From: Draconibacterium orientale
GTDB taxonomy: Bacteria; Bacteroidota; Bacteroidia; Bacteroidales; Prolixibacteraceae
Assembly (NCBI GenBank): GCA_020726265.1
Contig: DYSZ01000020.1
Coordinates: 1-34,230, forward strand
DNA: 34,230 nucleotides
Direction: 5' to 3'
The position numbers and the translations under genes are program-made. Position 1 is the stretch's first letter, and every line of letters begins with the position of its first letter. Below the pieces are notes generated by a model that saw only the letters and a list, made by a program, of their open reading frames with translations, did no database searches and had not been told where the DNA came from. Shown here piece by piece: positions 5,914 to 17,031 of this stretch.

Positions 5914-8292
5914 ATGAAAACTGGATTTTCTACTTTAATTTTTGCCATTTTAATGTTGGGTTTTTGTGTTTCGGGTACTGCCCAAACCGAAAAGCAACCC
6001 GCCGATTTTGTCAACCCTTTTCTGGGGACTGATTTTTTCGGGCACACTTACCCAGGATCAGGTTTGCCGTTTGGATTGGTGCATTTGGGACCCGATACGG
6101 GAACCGAAGGCTGGAGCCACTGTGCGGGTTATGTGTATGGCGATAATACCATCATCGGGTTTAGTCACACGCACTGGAGTGGCGTTGGCATGGTAAACGG
6201 TGGCGAAATTATGCTCATGCCTACTGCCGCCGACCAATTGCAGATTGTTCCGGGAACAGCTAAAAATCCGGAAGAGGGTTACCGCTCGCGCTTTAGTCAT
6301 GCCGATGAAACTGCAACACCGGGTTATTATTCTGTTATGCTGAAAGATGAAAACATAAAAGTGGAACTAACTGCTACAAAACGGGCTGGTTTTCACCGAT
6401 ATACATTTCCAAAAACCGAAAATGCCAGGATAATTCTTGACCTTGGTCACCAGATTGGGGCCATGAAATCGGAAGAACTTTCGGAGTTTAAAATCATCGA
6501 TAATAACCGAATTGAAGGAGCAAAAAGAGCCAACCTTGGAAAAGTTTATTTTGTGGCTGAGTTCAGCAAACCGTTCAGGTATTACGGAACTTTCGATACC
6601 GAGTATGTTACTCCTGAGTCGGGCGGGAGTTACTGGCCTTATAAAAGCGGTGAAAACGGCAATAAAATAGGGGCGTTTGTCACTTACAAAACCTTGGAGA
6701 ATGAAGCTATTCTGGTAAAAGTTGGAATTTCGTACACAAGTATTGAAGGCGCCCGTAAAAACCTGGAAGCTGAGATTCCCGACTGGGATTTTGAAAGGGT
6801 AAAAAACGAAGCCCGCGAAACCTGGAACCGTGAGATTTCAAAAATTCAGGTTGACGGCGCCACTGACGACCAGAAGGAAATCTTCTACACAGCTTTGTAC
6901 CACTCATTTCTGGCACAATATATTTCAAGCGATGCGGATGGAAAATATATCGATTCTGACGGGCAGATTCATGTCGCCAAGGATTTCGATTTTTATGGTT
7001 CATTTTCGTGCTGGGATACCTACCGTTCGCAGCACCCGCTGCTTACATTAACTGCTCCGGAACATGTTGATGATTTTATTAAATCGATTGCCGCCAAAAC
7101 CGAACATTACGACTGGCTGCCGGCGCAACATTTTCTGAATGTTTTTGGTGAATCGATGGTTGGCGACCACCTGATTCCGGTAATTGTGGATGCTTATATG
7201 AAAGGGTTCCGCGATTTCGATGTGAAATTTTTGTACAAAGCGATGAAACGGAAAGCGCTCGAAACACCCACAGAACCACGGTTGGCACACGCTGGCCGCT
7301 CGGGGCTGGAGTTCTACAAAACACTGGGTTACACACCGGTTGACAAAGTTGCCGAGTCGGTGCCCAACACACTCGAACTGGCGTACGACGACTGGTGCAT
7401 CGCTCAATTAGCCAATGCTTTAGGCGAAAAATCAGACTACGAATTGTTTATGAAACGTGCCGGAAATTATGCCAATTTATGGGATGCCGAAACCCAATTC
7501 ATGCGACCGAAAAAAGCCGACAGAAGTTTTCTGGAAGCTATGAACGGTCGGGAACAGGAAATTGTAACCGAAGGAAATCATCATTATTATAAATATTTCG
7601 ACCCGCTGCTGGTAGGCCGACGACCCAACCGTCATTACACAGAATCGAATGCCTGGCAGTACATCTGGTCGGTGCAGCATGATGCACAGGGCCTGATTAA
7701 CTTGTTTGGAAATAGCGAAGCTTTTGTAGCCAAACTCGACACTTTTTTTGGCATGGATGTAAACATCACTCCCCCGAAATATGTGGGCGTTGTGGGAACC
7801 ATCGGACAATATGTTCAGGGAAATCAACCGTCGCATCATGTAGCTTATTTATATAATTATGCAGGCCAGCCATGGAAAACCCAGCAACGCGCCCGCCAGG
7901 TGTGCGAGGAGTTGTACCGCAGTGGTCCCGGCGGATTGTGCGGCAACGAGGATATGGGTTCGCTTTCGTCGTGGTATGTTTTAAGTGCCATTGGCATTTA
8001 CCCGGTTACTCCCGGATTGCCGGTTTATGCAATCGGTAGCCCTGTTTTGGGTGAGGCAAAAATTTCGCTTGCAGGCGGAAAATCGTTTGCAATCAAAGCG
8101 CATAACAATTCAAAAGAGAATAAATACATCCAGTCGGCCACCTTAAACGGACTGCCTTTTGACAGAACATGGATTACACATGAAGAAATTACAAAAGGTG
8201 GCGAACTGGTATTCAAAATGGGCTCGCAACCGAATAAAAAATGGGGAACTGGTAAAAACGCTGCTCCGCCTTCGATGACTTTTGTGAAATAG
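5914..8292 (+). CDS. GH92 family alpha-mannosidase, secreted
   Basis: This is a full-length GH92 exo-alpha-mannosidase (792 aa from this start), a calcium-dependent inverting enzyme class that removes terminal mannose from alpha-mannans or high-mannose N-glycans. An ATG 27 bp upstream (5887) is in frame, but starting at 5914 gives a clean signal peptide (MKTGFSTLIFAILMLGF, cleavage after GTAQ). The family N-terminal motifs VNPFLGTD, PFGLVHLGPDT and FSHTHWSGVG are present. The catalytic-acid region is YTESNAWQYIW with Glu577, and the base/calcium region is CGNEDMGSLSSWYVLSAIG with Asp680. No lipobox is visible, so it is probably periplasmic. It lies alone on the plus strand, divergent from the GH2 operon, suggesting joint degradation of a mannose-containing glycan. 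Specificity (1,2 / 1,3 / 1,4 / 1,6) cannot be told from the sequence. Confidence 0.95.
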   Translation: MKTGFSTLIFAILMLGFCVSGTAQTEKQPADFVNPFLGTDFFGHTYPGSGLPFGLVHLGPDTGTEGWSHCAGYVYGDNTIIGFSHTHWSGVGMVNGGEIMLMPTAADQLQIVPGTAKNPEEGYRSRFSHADETATPGYYSVMLKDENIKVELTATKRAGFHRYTFPKTENARIILDLGHQIGAMKSEELSEFKIIDNNRIEGAKRANLGKVYFVAEFSKPFRYYGTFDTEYVTPESGGSYWPYKSGENGNKIGAFVTYKTLENEAILVKVGISYTSIEGARKNLEAEIPDWDFERVKNEARETWNREISKIQVDGATDDQKEIFYTALYHSFLAQYISSDADGKYIDSDGQIHVAKDFDFYGSFSCWDTYRSQHPLLTLTAPEHVDDFIKSIAAKTEHYDWLPAQHFLNVFGESMVGDHLIPVIVDAYMKGFRDFDVKFLYKAMKRKALETPTEPRLAHAGRSGLEFYKTLGYTPVDKVAESVPNTLELAYDDWCIAQLANALGEKSDYELFMKRAGNYANLWDAETQFMRPKKADRSFLEAMNGREQEIVTEGNHHYYKYFDPLLVGRRPNRHYTESNAWQYIWSVQHDAQGLINLFGNSEAFVAKLDTFFGMDVNITPPKYVGVVGTIGQYVQGNQPSHHVAYLYNYAGQPWKTQQRARQVCEELYRSGPGGLCGNEDMGSLSSWYVLSAIGIYPVTPGLPVYAIGSPVLGEAKISLAGGKSFAIKAHNNSKENKYIQSATLNGLPFDRTWITHEEITKGGELVFKMGSQPNKKWGTGKNAAPPSMTFVK

Positions 8293-8381
8293 TTGGGTAT
8301 CATGCGAGTGTCGCGTCCCGAAATCAGGAGCGGGGTTAGTCAAAAATTATATTTTCACACATTCAATTTTATCAAAGATAT

Positions 8382-9178
8382 TTACTTTATCTTCCTGATT
8401 TTAATGTTTTTGTACCACGATTCGTAACTGTGGTTGGTGATAACAATATGTCCGCTGCGTTTCAGTTCAAAATCAGGGTATTTTGCATATTTACTCAGCC
8501 TGAAAAGCGAATCAAACTCAGTAGTGGCAAACTCAAAATTAAACACTTTTACGCCGTTCACCCAATGCTCCCCGTGATTTCTGTCTATCAGAATCCGGCC
8601 CTGGTTAAATTCCCCGGCAGGATTCAGCTGAACATTTTGTGGGGGATACATTTCGTAAAGTGCTCCGGTGTATTGCGTTGGTTTCAGGTCTTTGTAAATT
8701 TGAGCTGAATCGTCGAGAATCTGGTATTCAAAACCCAATGCATTAAACCCTGAACCGTAGGATTTCGAGATTTTTCCGACACATTGTATTTGATTCCGCT
8801 GTTTCCGCCACCCAGAATTTTCCATTCAAAAGACAGTTCAAAACTGTCGAAAGTATCGATGGTCATCAGGTCGCCGCCATTAATTTTTTCACCGTTTGCC
8901 AAAGCAGGACCATCATCGTTTTTCAATTTATGAATCATTCCGTTTTCCACTTTCCAATGGTTGGTTTCCACTGTGTCACGCCCCAATCCGCGCCAGCCTG
9001 CGAAACTCTTTCCATCGAAGAGCAGTTCCCAGCCCTGCTCTTTTTCTTCTTTGCTTATAATTTCGCCCTGATTTTTCACACCGGGTTTACAACTGATAAA
9101 AAGAACCAGCAAAACAAGCAGCAACAATGGAGTGCGGATTGTTTTGTTTGACTTCGCGTTCTCCTGTTTTTTCATCAT
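8382..9178 (-). pseudogene. DUF1080 / 3-keto-disaccharide hydrolase family lipoprotein, frameshifted
   Basis: Two overlapping minus-strand frames together make one DUF1080 protein of about 265 aa. The first frame (from 9178) gives a lipoprotein leader (LLLLVLLVLFISC, Cys30), then WELLFDGKSFAGWRG, HWKVENGMI and FEWKILGGGNSGIKYNV, all typical of the family. The second frame resumes with YGSGFNALGFEYQILDD and runs to HGEHWVNGVKVFNFE and the stop at 8382. One base added to the TTT run at 8763-8765 (AAA on the coding strand) joins them as SEKSRKSYGSGF. This is either a true single-base deletion or a sequencing/assembly slip in a short homopolymer. Otherwise the gene looks intact and under selection in both halves, favouring an error or a very recent loss. 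DUF1080 proteins bind or cleave sugars, including 3-keto glycosides. Confidence 0.85.
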
Positions 9179-9314: not shown

Positions 9315-9917
9315 ATGAGACATTTTTTTGTGATAACAGTTGTAATGGCAATGGTACTTTTTGTTAGTGCCGCCAAACCCGAACCCAAATGGAAATCGTT
9401 ATTCAACGGTAACAATCTGGATGGCTGGACTGTTCGCGGAAAAGCAACTTGGGTGGTAAAAGACGGGGCACTTGTTGGCGAAGGCGCTAACGGACATATT
9501 TATGCTGCCCCTGAACTGACCAATCTTGAGGTAAAGGGGAAATTCCGCATAACCAGTACCGGCAAAGATGCCAACAGTGGTTTGTATTTCAGAGCCAATC
9601 CGCCGGCCGATAATCCGGATAGTTATCCGCGTGGTTACGAAGCCCAGATCTGCAACAGCCAGGAAGCCCACACCGGCTGGCTCTGGAAACCAGGTACCCC
9701 AACCGGAAAAGCAACCGTCAACCTGACAAAAGATGGCGAGTGGTTTGATTATAGGGTGAAAGCTGTAGGAACGCATATCGAATTCTGGATTAACGAACAA
9801 TTGGTGATGACTTACGATGATAGTGAATACACAAAAGGTTTTTTTGCTATCCAATGCCATAATCCCGGCATGGTTATCGAGGCAAAAGAATTGTATTACA
9901 GGGATCTCAGCAAATAG
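9315..9917 (+). CDS. DUF1080 / 3-keto-disaccharide hydrolase family protein, secreted
   Basis: This 200-aa protein has a Sec signal (MRHFFVITVVMAMVLFVSAA) followed directly by one DUF1080 domain, a concanavalin-like beta sandwich: WKSLFNGNNLDGWTV, TWVVKDGALVGEG, the SGLYFRA strand, PRGYEAQICNS and EFWINEQLVMTYDD. DUF1080 (PF06439) is annotated as 3-keto-disaccharide hydrolase, and members act with Gfo/Idh-type oxidoreductases in C3-oxidative glycoside breakdown. It is divergent from the frameshifted paralogue at 8382-9178 across 136 bp, so both may share control. Transcription probably ends at the strong hairpin at 9957-9991. Whether this copy is catalytic or only carbohydrate-binding cannot be decided here. 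Confidence 0.88.
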   Translation: MRHFFVITVVMAMVLFVSAAKPEPKWKSLFNGNNLDGWTVRGKATWVVKDGALVGEGANGHIYAAPELTNLEVKGKFRITSTGKDANSGLYFRANPPADNPDSYPRGYEAQICNSQEAHTGWLWKPGTPTGKATVNLTKDGEWFDYRVKAVGTHIEFWINEQLVMTYDDSEYTKGFFAIQCHNPGMVIEAKELYYRDLSK

Positions 9918-13920: not shown

Positions 13921-15459
13921 ATGCTGAAAAAAATTCTGAATTATCTGAGATCTAAAATTCTGTTGCTTTTACTTATTAGTTTTGTGATTGGAATTACAGT
14001 TACAGTGATGTCGAACAAGGCACTCGAAGCCACATCAACAAATAAATCATGCGAAATGTGTCATGTACACCCACATGTTTTCGATTCATGGAAAAGGTCG
14101 GTGCATTACGAAACCCGCTCCGGAATCCGCATCGGATGTGTCGATTGCCATCTTCCCCCGAAAGGAGAAGGTTATCTGCCTGAAAAAATCAAAGCTTCGG
14201 CTCGCGATTTATATGGATTGATTTTTAAAGACAGCGCCGATTTTAACTGGGAAGAAAAATCGACTTTGGAATATGCACAACATCATGTTTTTCAGGAATC
14301 GTGCGATAAATGCCACCCGAATCTTTTCCCGCTCACGCTCACAAAAGACGGTCAGAATGCGCATCTGTACTATTCACAGAACAAAGACACGAAAGGATTG
14401 CTTTGCATTAATTGCCACCTCAATGTGGGTCACTACAACCCGAATGCCTTGCACGCCAAAAACGTAAGTTTTGGGAGTGCAGGGGGTGCAGAAAAAGCAA
14501 AATTCGATTCGGCGGCAATTGTTACCGGGCACAAAGATTTTACAGAAAATGTACCCGGGACAACCGTATCGTTCAACATGAAAGCCATCCCGGGCGGTTC
14601 GTTTAAAATGGGCAGCCCCGAGAGTGAGCCTTTACGAAAAGCAGATGAAGGCCCGCAAAAAGAGGTAAAAATCAGTCCTTTCTTTATGGCCGAAATTGAA
14701 GTGAGCTGGGAAGAATACCTTGCTTTCTACTCTGCCACTGCTGCTGAAGGCCGTTCAACCGACACCGAAGGAAGCCGCACGATGGCTGATGTTGATGCGA
14801 TTTCGGGGCCAACCCCGCCTTACGGACAACCCGACCAAAACTGGGGAATGGGTAAACGTCCGGCCATCACAATGAGTTATCATTCAGCTGAAACCTATTG
14901 CAAATGGCTTTCGCAGGTTGCCGGCAAAACATACCGTTTGCCCACCGAAGCAGAATGGGAATATGCAGCCCGCGGCGGCACACAAACTCCGTTTTACTTC
15001 GAAGGAAATCCGAAAGATTTTGCTCAAAAAGGATTCCTCGGGAAACTTTTTGGAAAAGATAGTGACGTGATTAACAAATACGTTGTTTATGGTAAAAACA
15101 GCCGTAGCAAAACGGAGGAACCTCAAAAAGTGGAAGCCAACCCGTTTGGATTGAAAAATATGTTGGGTAATGCAGCAGAATATTGCTCAGACTGGTACAC
15201 TGAAGATGCTTACGCACAACTGCAGGAAGGCACAACCGACCCGAAAGGTCCTTCGGGGGGCAATGAACATGTGGTTCGTGGCGGATATTTTAAAAGCGAT
15301 ATAGCCGATGTACGCAGCGCTTCAAGACGTGCAACACAAAACGAGGCCTGGTTGAAAACCGACCCACAAATGCCCAAAAGTATCTGGTGGCTTTCAGACT
15401 GTAATTATATAAGCTTCAGGGTGGTTTGCGAATTCGATGAAAAAACTGGAAATAAATGA
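13921..15459 (+). CDS. NapC/NrfH-type tetraheme cytochrome c fused to SUMF1/FGE-like domain
   Basis: This 512-aa fusion begins with a membrane anchor (about residues 12-30, ILLLLLISFVIGITVTVM). Then come four CxxCH heme c sites: C44-C47-H48, C73-C76-H77, C128-C131-H132 and C162-C165-H166. This is the layout of NapC/NrfH quinol dehydrogenases, which take electrons from menaquinol in the inner membrane. From about residue 219 to 505 follows a formylglycine-generating-enzyme/SUMF1-type domain: IPGGSFKMGSPESE, ISPFFMAEIEVSWEEYLAF, YRLPTEAEWEYAARGG, NMLGNAAEYCSDWY and VVRGGYF. The Cys pair that binds copper in true FGEs is missing after RGGYF, so sulfatase maturation is unlikely. The fused domain may be a binding or oxidoreductase module served by the hemes. 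It is followed after 38 bp by a Tat-signal Gfo/Idh oxidoreductase, probably in one operon. The whole protein after the anchor is expected in the periplasm. Confidence 0.9.
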   Translation: MLKKILNYLRSKILLLLLISFVIGITVTVMSNKALEATSTNKSCEMCHVHPHVFDSWKRSVHYETRSGIRIGCVDCHLPPKGEGYLPEKIKASARDLYGLIFKDSADFNWEEKSTLEYAQHHVFQESCDKCHPNLFPLTLTKDGQNAHLYYSQNKDTKGLLCINCHLNVGHYNPNALHAKNVSFGSAGGAEKAKFDSAAIVTGHKDFTENVPGTTVSFNMKAIPGGSFKMGSPESEPLRKADEGPQKEVKISPFFMAEIEVSWEEYLAFYSATAAEGRSTDTEGSRTMADVDAISGPTPPYGQPDQNWGMGKRPAITMSYHSAETYCKWLSQVAGKTYRLPTEAEWEYAARGGTQTPFYFEGNPKDFAQKGFLGKLFGKDSDVINKYVVYGKNSRSKTEEPQKVEANPFGLKNMLGNAAEYCSDWYTEDAYAQLQEGTTDPKGPSGGNEHVVRGGYFKSDIADVRSASRRATQNEAWLKTDPQMPKSIWWLSDCNYISFRVVCEFDEKTGNK

Positions 15460-15497
15460 TAATTTTAAAGTCCTAAATTCAACTAAAATTTAATAAT

Positions 15498-16856
15498 ATG
15501 AGTAACAATCCGTTTTCAAGAAGAAAATTCCTTGCTGGCGCAGCCGTTGTTGGTGCAGCTGGTTCGATGGGTGCAGGAGTTCTTACTTCATGCACAGGTG
15601 GTGGAAAAAAAACAACTGGCGCTTATGATTGGGTCCCGCGTGAGTATAAATTCCCGCCGATGCCCGAAAAAGCGCCCGAAGGCGCTGAGCTGAAAGCCGG
15701 TATCATTGGCTGTGGTGGCCGTGGGTCGGGTGCAGCCATCAATTTTCTGAATGCAGGTACAGGTTTAACAGTTACTGCACTTGGCGATGTTTTTCAGGAC
15801 AGGGTTGACAGCTGTCGCGAAAAAATTAAAACCGAAAAAGGTGTCGAAGTACCGGTTGAAAACTGTTTTGTTGGTTTCGATGCTTTCCAGAAAGTAATTG
15901 ACGCCGGCGTTGATATTATCATTCTGGCCACTCCGCCAAAATTCAGACCAGAACATTTTGAAGCCGCTGTAAAAGCACGTAAACACGTGTTTATGGAAAA
16001 ACCAGTTGCCGTTGATCCGGTTGGTATCCGCCAGGTAATGGCTGCAGCCAAAATGGCCGACTCAATGGGTTTGAAAGTGGTTACCGGGACGCAACGTCGT
16101 CACCAGCACAGCTATATCAGCCTTTATAAGGAAATCGCCAATAATAGCATCGGAAATATTGTTTCGGCCAATGTGTATTGGAATGGTGGCAAACTTTGGC
16201 ATCGCGACAATAAACCCGAATGGAGCGAAATGGAATGGATGATCCGCGACTGGGTAAACTGGTGCTGGCTCTCGGGCGACCATATTGTTGAACAGCATGT
16301 TCACAACCTCGATGTGGCCATGTGGTTCTTTGGTGAGGCTCCGGTAAAAGCCGTTGGTTTTGGCTCACGTCAGCGCAGGCCCACTGGCGACCAGTTCGAC
16401 AACTTCAGTATCGACTATACTTTTGCAGACGGAAGACAAATGCACAGCATGTGCCGTCAGATTAACGATTGCGCCAACGGTGTTTACGAAGTTTTTCACG
16501 GAACAAAAGCAATTGCCCGTACCGACGAAAGTGCGAGGAGAATTGTAGATCCAACGGGGAATGTACTGTTTACAACCGATGATAAAGAAAAAACAGACCC
16601 TTACGTTCAGGAACATATCAATCTGGTTACCTGTATCCGTCAGGATATTCCCTGGAACCAGGCAGAAGAAACAGCCATGTCAAACTTAGTGGCAATGATG
16701 GGTCGTGTTTCGGCATACACTGGCAAAGCAGTAACATACGAAGAAATGATGAACTCAGACCTTAAACTGGGTCCGGAAGTTTATGTAATGGGTAACGTTG
16801 GCTACATTGAAAAGGCCACTGTACCGGTTGCCGGTTCATACAATAAAGAAGGATAG
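15498..16856 (+). CDS. Tat-exported Gfo/Idh/MocA family oxidoreductase
   Basis: The 452-aa protein starts with a twin-arginine signal (FSRRKFLAGAAVVGAAG). A possible lipobox at LTSC (Cys32) suggests a Tat-dependent lipoprotein. The Rossmann motif GIIGCGGRGSG lies at residues 68-78 and the conserved EKP (MEKPVAV) at 167-169. The C-terminal alpha/beta half contains EQHVHNLDVAMWFFGE, the catalytic-His segment of this family. Exported members carry tightly bound NAD(P) and oxidise or dehydrate sugars, as in periplasmic glucose-fructose oxidoreductase and C3-oxidising enzymes. The gene is 38 bp downstream of the tetraheme cytochrome/SUMF1 fusion and followed by two hairpins, so the two form a short operon. 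The inferred role is periplasmic sugar oxidation, perhaps with electrons passed through the cytochrome. The substrate is unknown. Confidence 0.92.
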   Translation: MSNNPFSRRKFLAGAAVVGAAGSMGAGVLTSCTGGGKKTTGAYDWVPREYKFPPMPEKAPEGAELKAGIIGCGGRGSGAAINFLNAGTGLTVTALGDVFQDRVDSCREKIKTEKGVEVPVENCFVGFDAFQKVIDAGVDIIILATPPKFRPEHFEAAVKARKHVFMEKPVAVDPVGIRQVMAAAKMADSMGLKVVTGTQRRHQHSYISLYKEIANNSIGNIVSANVYWNGGKLWHRDNKPEWSEMEWMIRDWVNWCWLSGDHIVEQHVHNLDVAMWFFGEAPVKAVGFGSRQRRPTGDQFDNFSIDYTFADGRQMHSMCRQINDCANGVYEVFHGTKAIARTDESARRIVDPTGNVLFTTDDKEKTDPYVQEHINLVTCIRQDIPWNQAEETAMSNLVAMMGRVSAYTGKAVTYEEMMNSDLKLGPEVYVMGNVGYIEKATVPVAGSYNKEG

Positions 16857-16894: not shown

Positions 16895-16929
16895 CCATTA
16901 CCCGAAAGGGATTAATCAATCAATCCGGT

Positions 16930-16971
16930 AAACCACCTGTCAGCTTTTGCTTTCGGGTGGTTTCTTTTTTT
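16930..16971 (+). terminator. Rho-independent terminator of the cytochrome-oxidoreductase operon
   Basis: AAACCACC and GGTGGTTT form an 8-bp stem extended by TG/CG pairs, with an inner AGC/GCT hairpin, followed by TTTCTTTTTTT. It is a classic intrinsic terminator on the plus strand. Confidence 0.8.
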
Positions 16972-17031
16972 ACCAATTCGTAAATAATGGCATAATTTAA
17001 TTTGCATCCAACTCATTTTCATTTAAAAATT

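Follow-up and report, generated by a model that had tools for sequence, protein, structure and literature searches.

The gene pair described here comes from Draconibacterium orientale (Bacteroidales, Prolixibacteraceae). It lies in a stretch of 34,230 nucleotides, referred to below as the window (contig DYSZ01000020.1, positions 1 to 34,230 of the forward strand; NCBI GenBank assembly GCA_020726265.1, 3.86 Mb in 346 contigs). The two genes are both on the + strand and are separated by 38 nucleotides in the list of open reading frames (ORFs). The upstream gene (13921–15459) encodes a protein of 512 amino acids in which a NapC/NirT domain is fused to a SUMF1-like domain, the downstream gene (15498–16856) encodes an oxidoreductase of the Gfo/Idh/MocA family of 452 amino acids with a twin-arginine translocation (Tat) signal. 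These proteins are referred to as the fusion and Gfo.

The fusion starts with a hydrophobic stretch (residues 13–38, 13957–14034), which is helical in the structure model and is presumed to be a membrane anchor. The NapC/NirT domain (PF03264) is found at residues 11–175 (13951–14445, E 1.6e-29) and includes four CxxCH motifs starting at residues 44, 73, 128 and 162 (codons at 14050, 14137, 14302 and 14404). In the same frame the FGE-sulfatase domain (PF03781) is present at residues 222–476 (14584–15348, E 1.1e-40), this match covers positions 7–242 of a profile of 255. Beyond it is the C-terminal signature DPQxPKSxWW (residues 481–490, 15361–15390). The model of the fusion has a predicted local distance difference test score (pLDDT) of 78.8 and a predicted template modelling score (pTM) of 0.73.

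Gfo matches the Pfam families PF01408 (E 6.9e-14), PF02894 and PF22725. Its match to the TAT_signal family (PF10518, E 1.6e-4) scores 21.9 bits, slightly below the cut-off of 22.7. The Tat motif SRRKFL is followed by Cys32 in a lipobox-like LTSC (15516–15593, +). Downstream of gfo a hairpin with a T run resembles an intrinsic terminator (16925–16972, +), its folding energy is -20.1 kcal/mol (z -5.0) and none of 200 shuffled sequences folds as well. The hairpin was not listed by a simple terminator consensus scan, probably because the scan allows at most eight bases between the arms of a stem and there are more between those of the outer stem; the promoter and terminator scan returned 6 and 7 sites, where shuffled sequences gave means of 5.7 and 4.5. 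The initial annotation had described an anchor helix, four CxxCH sites and a SUMF1 domain in one frame, followed after 38 bp by a Gfo/Idh/MocA protein with a Tat signal and then by a terminator. This arrangement is borne out by the ORFs, the Pfam matches and the hairpin.

Distribution of the gene pair

The gfo gene adjoins the fusion in all of the 29 best-scoring loci of a first search for relatives, one of which is truncated at a contig end. In that search matches with an E-value of 1e-100 or better were present in 34 of 36 genomes of the same genus and in 5 of 24 other genomes of the same order. Of the loci on named contigs the best 80 (out of 553) were taken: gfo immediately follows the fusion on the same strand in 72, one ends at a contig edge and in seven the genes are not adjacent. 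A sample of 295 genomes of the order was searched with profiles of the fusion (E up to 1e-120) and of gfo (E up to 1e-80). The fusion is present in 38 genomes and the gfo subfamily in 39, and all 38 genomes with the fusion hold both; these are raw counts, in which genomes are counted irrespective of relatedness. A single genome has the gfo subfamily without the fusion. Since gfo lies downstream of the fusion in 72 of 80 loci and the two co-occur in 38 of 38 genomes, it is strongly supported that their pairing is not due to chance. The outcome set beforehand as refuting the proposed link, fusions never found beside Gfo/Idh genes, did not occur.

The genome of the window contains a second fusion-gfo pair on another contig, both proteins of which are about 50% identical to those described here. 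The nearest named contigs are from a Prolixibacteraceae metagenome-assembled genome (89% identity for the fusion), followed by Draconibacterium, Maribellus, Mariniphaga and Tangfeifania. Most of the named loci carry the label of Bacteroidales or related groups, a few are in metagenome-assembled genomes labelled Chitinophaga, Chlorobiota and Gemmatimonadetes. In a sample of 395 genomes from across the phylum, three contain the full fusion, one of which is outside the class.

Some loci have further features. The second fusion of one genome (locus L047) is broken into two frames, and so is the accompanying gfo. In two Alistipes loci (L125 and L130) the pair comes after ATP synthase genes, as identified by Pfam for one gene of L130. 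In four of the 80 loci (L089, L100, L103 and L104) cytochrome bd oxidase genes are divergent to the fusion, the Pfam assignment being made on the L089 pair.

Domains of the fusion and of its partner

Exactly four CxxCH motifs are present in all of 109 distinct fusions, which were chosen for having at least three. The fusion aligns with NrfH of Desulfovibrio (2j7a) with an E-value of 0.0016 for the single sequence and 4e-10 for the profile. Residues K89 and D96 align with Lys82 and Asp89 of NrfH and are invariant in a 73-row alignment of fusions (A3). Lys82 and Asp89 are tied to the quinone role of NrfH in the excerpt of PMC4683180. The fusion is similar to NapC, NrfH and CymA in its hydrophobic N-terminal helix, its four CxxCH motifs and this residue pair, it differs from them in the ligand of heme 1, which is discussed below, and in the appended SUMF1-fold domain. 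It scores far below the cut-offs of the NapC, TorC and NrfH models.

Apart from the two fusions, no protein in the genome matches PF03264. No full-length NrfA protein (PF02335) was found in it, the only match to this family covers 62 positions of a protein with eight CxxCH motifs. A classical NrfHA role is therefore not the first to suggest itself, and nitrite reduction of the NrfHA type is disfavoured as a function in the absence of a full PF02335 protein. No NrfA or NapA family is present among the window proteins scanned. The fusion would appear to belong with NapC and NrfH but to have a partner of a new type.

The best structure matches of the modelled SUMF1 domain are PvdO (5hha) and then FGE. 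The domain shares its fold and the PF03781 match with FGE/SUMF1, PvdO and EgtB, but differs in having neither the FGE cysteine pair nor a conserved histidine, and in the DPQxPKSxWW signature. A pattern for the FGE cysteine pair, which does match the FGE stretch of T. curvata, is found in none of the 109 distinct fusions and in none of 25 relatives that consist of the SUMF1 domain only. The domain was initially annotated as complete; it is nearly so as a fold, but this active-site pair, which in FGE binds copper, is missing. In the SUMF1 part of the 73 aligned fusions no histidine is conserved above 70%, and the only cysteines conserved above this level are C327, C422 and C503. EgtB-type non-heme iron enzymes have conserved histidine ligands, which the SUMF1 part of these fusions lacks. 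FGE or iron-oxidase chemistry is disfavoured by the absence of the cysteine pair and of a conserved histidine, and so, on the same grounds, is sulfatase maturation. The earlier suggestion that the cytochrome might drive the SUMF1 module is likewise not supported.

C422 is present in 68 and C503 in 72 of the 73 fusions, the corresponding residues in 26 rows of SUMF1-only relatives are Thr in 23 and Arg in 21. The two cysteines are a possible disulfide specific to the fusions. There is also a conserved loop, D292-A-I-S-G296-P-T298 (14794–14814), which resembles an ApbE flavinylation motif, except that P replaces the A of the motif. In its general form the loop is D-x-x-x-G-[AP]-T. D292, G296 and T298 are invariant in the 73 rows, and the loop is of low confidence in the model.

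Gfo has the Rossmann domain of its family, as shown by PF01408 and PF02894. In an 11-row alignment of Gfo proteins (A2) K168, H269 and D272 are invariant, which we take to be the lysine of the EKP motif and the His-Asp residues of the C-terminal helix. The lipobox cysteine is also invariant in these rows, and a lipobox pattern is found in 69 of 73 gfo ORFs downstream of fusions. Three of the four remaining ORFs have a cysteine in place (MNSC, MNSC and LHSC), the head of the fourth starts upstream of the gene. Gfo thus looks like a Tat lipoprotein, and TatC is present in the genome. The lipobox after the Tat signal and the conserved cytochrome neighbour distinguish Gfo from other exported Gfo/Idh enzymes.

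The solved proteins nearest to Gfo by sequence include inositol dehydrogenases and DgpA. The 50 best structure matches also include these proteins, together with aldose-aldose oxidoreductase and glucose-fructose oxidoreductase; the Caulobacter and Zymomonas enzymes of these names thus share the fold of Gfo. BT2158, a periplasmic glycoside 3-dehydrogenase according to the excerpt of PMC11300592, has the Gfo/Idh fold in common with Gfo, but the score of Gfo against the NCBIfam BT_2158 model is 20 bits where the cut-off is 750.

Paralogues of gfo from the same subfamily adjoin a 3-keto-disaccharide hydrolase gene (PF06439) in two loci, one of them in the genome of the window. In the window itself PF06439 genes are present 4–5 kb upstream of the pair, near GH92 and GH2 genes. 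One (9315–9917, +) is about 4 kb upstream and is not operonic with the pair, the other (8382–9178, - strand) is split into two overlapping ORFs, which suggests a frameshift or an assembly error. A gene of a TIM-barrel family is present within 8 kb in 35 of the 80 fusion loci. Based on the likeness to inositol dehydrogenases and DgpA and on the PF06439 and TIM-barrel neighbours, the substrate of Gfo is probably a sugar or glycoside, and a keto product is a reasonable guess. The immediate flanks of the pair are a phosphoribosyltransferase-domain (ComF-like) gene on the opposite strand and a class II tRNA synthetase gene.

In a separate locus (L230, 5002–9233) a gfo paralogue is convergent with a cytochrome containing nine CxxCH motifs, which has a weak NapC/NirT match and is followed by a glucose-methanol-choline (GMC) oxidoreductase gene. 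This is possibly an independent cytochrome link.

SUMF1-like relatives without a cytochrome

SUMF1-only relatives elsewhere in Bacteroidota share the C-terminal signature of the fusions in the form DPQxP[KR]SxWW. We took 27 loci, representing 27 of the 32 SUMF1-only matches of a phylum-wide sample, and a Gfo/Idh gene was sought within 700 nucleotides on either side. It is present in 23 of the 27 loci, therefore the association of the SUMF1-like protein with Gfo needs no cytochrome. All 23 of these Gfo/Idh proteins have a Tat-like start, the five that were inspected have no lipobox cysteine after the Tat signal. In a 68-row tree of Gfo proteins, the eight Gfo rows taken from SUMF1-only loci group together with full support and are separate from the rows linked to a fusion; these eight rows, and eight rows of paralogues, are samples picked by motif filters.

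The persistence of the SUMF1-Gfo pairing without the cytochrome, together with the missing catalytic residues, suggests that the SUMF1 domain is a docking domain or adaptor and not an oxidase.

ApbE is found in 7 of 20 wider SUMF1-only regions (PF02424 was confirmed in 6 of the 7), and several of the 20 contain a TIM-barrel gene. A target pattern for ApbE that requires a preceding acidic residue was found in none of 8 loci, ApbE itself being absent from some of these. The bare motif was sought up to 5 kb from each of the seven ApbE genes and has two matches, both in Gfo proteins, one at the nucleotide-binding start and one in the signal region. The 26 aligned SUMF1-only rows consist of 25 proteins and a fragment of the broken fusion in L047; the residue at the position of G296 is R in 22 of them.

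Three loci from cytochrome-free lineages (L171, 3026–10359; L181; L184, 9598–13845) contain a conserved cluster of SUMF1, Tat Gfo/Idh, ApbE and Tat TIM-barrel genes. The L171 cluster also holds a major facilitator superfamily transporter and a GMC oxidoreductase as assigned by Pfam, L181 is similar as judged by the gene starts. A cytochrome-free SUMF1-Gfo-TIM cluster in L183 is immediately preceded by a gene for a Tll0287-like protein with one CxxCH (8207–8950). L166 and L167 contain SUMF1-only lipoprotein-like genes without gfo, in a cluster of another kind. This cluster includes a large protein that has two CxxCH motifs and a YceI gene, which was assigned by Pfam in L166; ApbE is also present in L166.

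Possible role of the gene pair

In our estimate the chances are about even that the two genes encode a respiratory unit at the membrane that acts on a sugar-like substrate. Gfo, which has the Tat motif and the lipobox, would be folded with its nicotinamide cofactor, exported through Tat and anchored by a lipid, and it would oxidise a hydroxyl of a sugar or glycoside to a keto group. The SUMF1-fold domain would act as a non-catalytic adaptor that docks Gfo. Electrons would pass from the substrate to nicotinamide adenine dinucleotide (phosphate), NAD(P), bound in Gfo, then to the tetraheme NapC/NrfH-like domain and on to menaquinone at the NrfH-type Lys/Asp site, the residues of which are present. 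The products might be passed to exported 3-keto-sugar enzymes or to the TIM-barrel protein, with which the pair is associated in some loci. The respiratory link proposed in the initial annotation is plausible given the NapC/NrfH-type domain with its conserved lysine and aspartate and the exported, lipobox-bearing Gfo.

Several observations weigh against this scheme. The step from hydride to heme is its weak point, there is no proven flavin site and we know of no precedent for direct hydride-to-heme transfer. Regeneration of the cofactor by the cytochrome, which the initial annotation had suggested, would require an additional step between hydride and heme. A read-through model of the two proteins is poor (pTM 0.54) and gives no interface. 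H50 of the fusion aligns with Met49, the heme-1 ligand of NrfH, and is His in all 73 rows, so that the quinol chemistry may differ from that of NrfH. Met49 and Asp89 are tied to the quinone role of NrfH in the excerpt of PMC10654088, which also describes the CxxCHxM heme-1 motif of NrfH and CymA; the fusion does not have this motif. In four of the seven non-adjacent loci the fusion is followed by a gene that is SusC-like as judged by its sequence, and gfo is absent from the range covered; in two others gfo is 3 and 9 kb further on and in one it is convergent. A further copy of the fusion in one genome is solitary within its 18 kb, and 4 of the 27 SUMF1-only loci have no Gfo gene. Tree distances of Gfo correlate with those of the NapC part (0.84) and the SUMF1 part (0.85) to an extent similar to that between the two parts (0.82), and single out neither domain as its partner. 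In the Gfo tree the rows linked to a fusion do not make up a single clade, as unlinked paralogues are interspersed with them. The TIM-barrel gene is unlinked to the pair in the genome of the window, and this genome has 19 PF06439 matches, so the presence of this family in the window proves little.

The direction of electron flow could be the reverse, with the tetraheme domain oxidising menaquinol and the electrons reducing a keto-sugar or bound nicotinamide through Gfo. Ordinary NapC/NrfH proteins feed periplasmic reductases in this way. CymA and NrfH are described as quinol dehydrogenases in the excerpt of PMC10654088, and K89 and D96 are kept. The change from Met49 to His departs from the quinol-dehydrogenase pattern, and we regard reverse flow as unlikely. 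Reduction of NAD(P)+ by menaquinol is also uphill by textbook potentials. The fusion might instead be a CymA-like quinol dehydrogenase that serves several periplasmic acceptors, of which Gfo is one client or only a neighbour. The fusion and its paralogue are the only NapC-type proteins of a genome that also encodes the protein with eight CxxCH motifs, and some fusions have no adjacent gfo. Such a general role is made rather improbable by the nearly one-to-one co-occurrence with a single Gfo subfamily and by the SUMF1 relatives that keep a Gfo neighbour without a cytochrome.

Two further alternatives give the SUMF1 domain a redox function. It could be a working oxidase or modifying enzyme of the FGE, EgtB or PvdO type, which takes electrons from menaquinol and acts on Gfo or on the substrate. 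The fold, closest to PvdO and then to FGE, would fit this, but we consider it highly improbable in view of the missing FGE cysteine pair and conserved histidine (the catalytic residues of PvdO are not covered by these patterns) and of the fusion loci in Alistipes, which is an anaerobe. Alternatively, a flavin mononucleotide (FMN) installed covalently by ApbE on Thr298 could serve as the switch from two-electron transfer by NAD(P)H to one-electron transfer by heme, and would overcome the difficulty of the hydride-to-heme step. The ApbE motif is described as [S/T]GA[S/T]-like in the excerpt of PMC8238504, and the invariant D292, G296 and T298, the [ST]GAT sequence of 27 of the 109 fusions and the ApbE genes in 7 of 20 SUMF1-only regions point towards such a switch. 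However, 76 of the 109 fusions carry P for the A of the motif, including that of the window, which reads SGPT and does not match strictly. The R that replaces G296 in SUMF1-only rows and the scarcity of the bare motif near ApbE genes, where only Gfo proteins contain it, are also unfavourable. With P in 76 fusions and a strict match in only 27, a flavin switch is kept as a very unlikely reading. We give equally little credence to the fuller scheme in which a retired FGE-fold domain docks a lipid-anchored NAD(P)-Gfo and carries covalent FMN at Thr298, electrons passing from the sugar to FMN, the four hemes and menaquinone. If it were true, a nicotinamide-dependent dehydrogenase would be a respiratory enzyme outside the cytoplasm, and the pair would provide the exit for electrons from a keto-sugar pathway in the periplasm of Bacteroidota.

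We found no paper on a NapC/NrfH-SUMF1 fusion in a literature search that was made partly by titles and term counts and covered few subscription journals. LacA of the LacABC lactose 3-dehydrogenase is a GMC flavoenzyme, unlike Gfo/Idh proteins, and we know of no SUMF1 fusion for LacABC. In the excerpt of PMC9007349 LacABC is described as oxidising glycosides at the membrane in the periplasm, with a DUF1080 protein alongside, and the unit proposed here would be similar in these respects.

Returning to the respiratory unit proposed above, the fusion and gfo of Bacteroidales suggest an undescribed route by which electrons from extracytoplasmic sugars enter respiration. To our knowledge, no route is established by which the bound nicotinamide of periplasmic Gfo/Idh enzymes is reoxidised. 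Because a conserved cytochrome is fused to a likely docking domain and the oxidoreductase gene adjoins it, this reoxidation can now be tested directly in cultured species, for example in Draconibacterium orientale. If the proposal is true, the NapC/NrfH family would gain a sugar-linked branch, and a function would be suggested for SUMF1-like proteins without the FGE active site.

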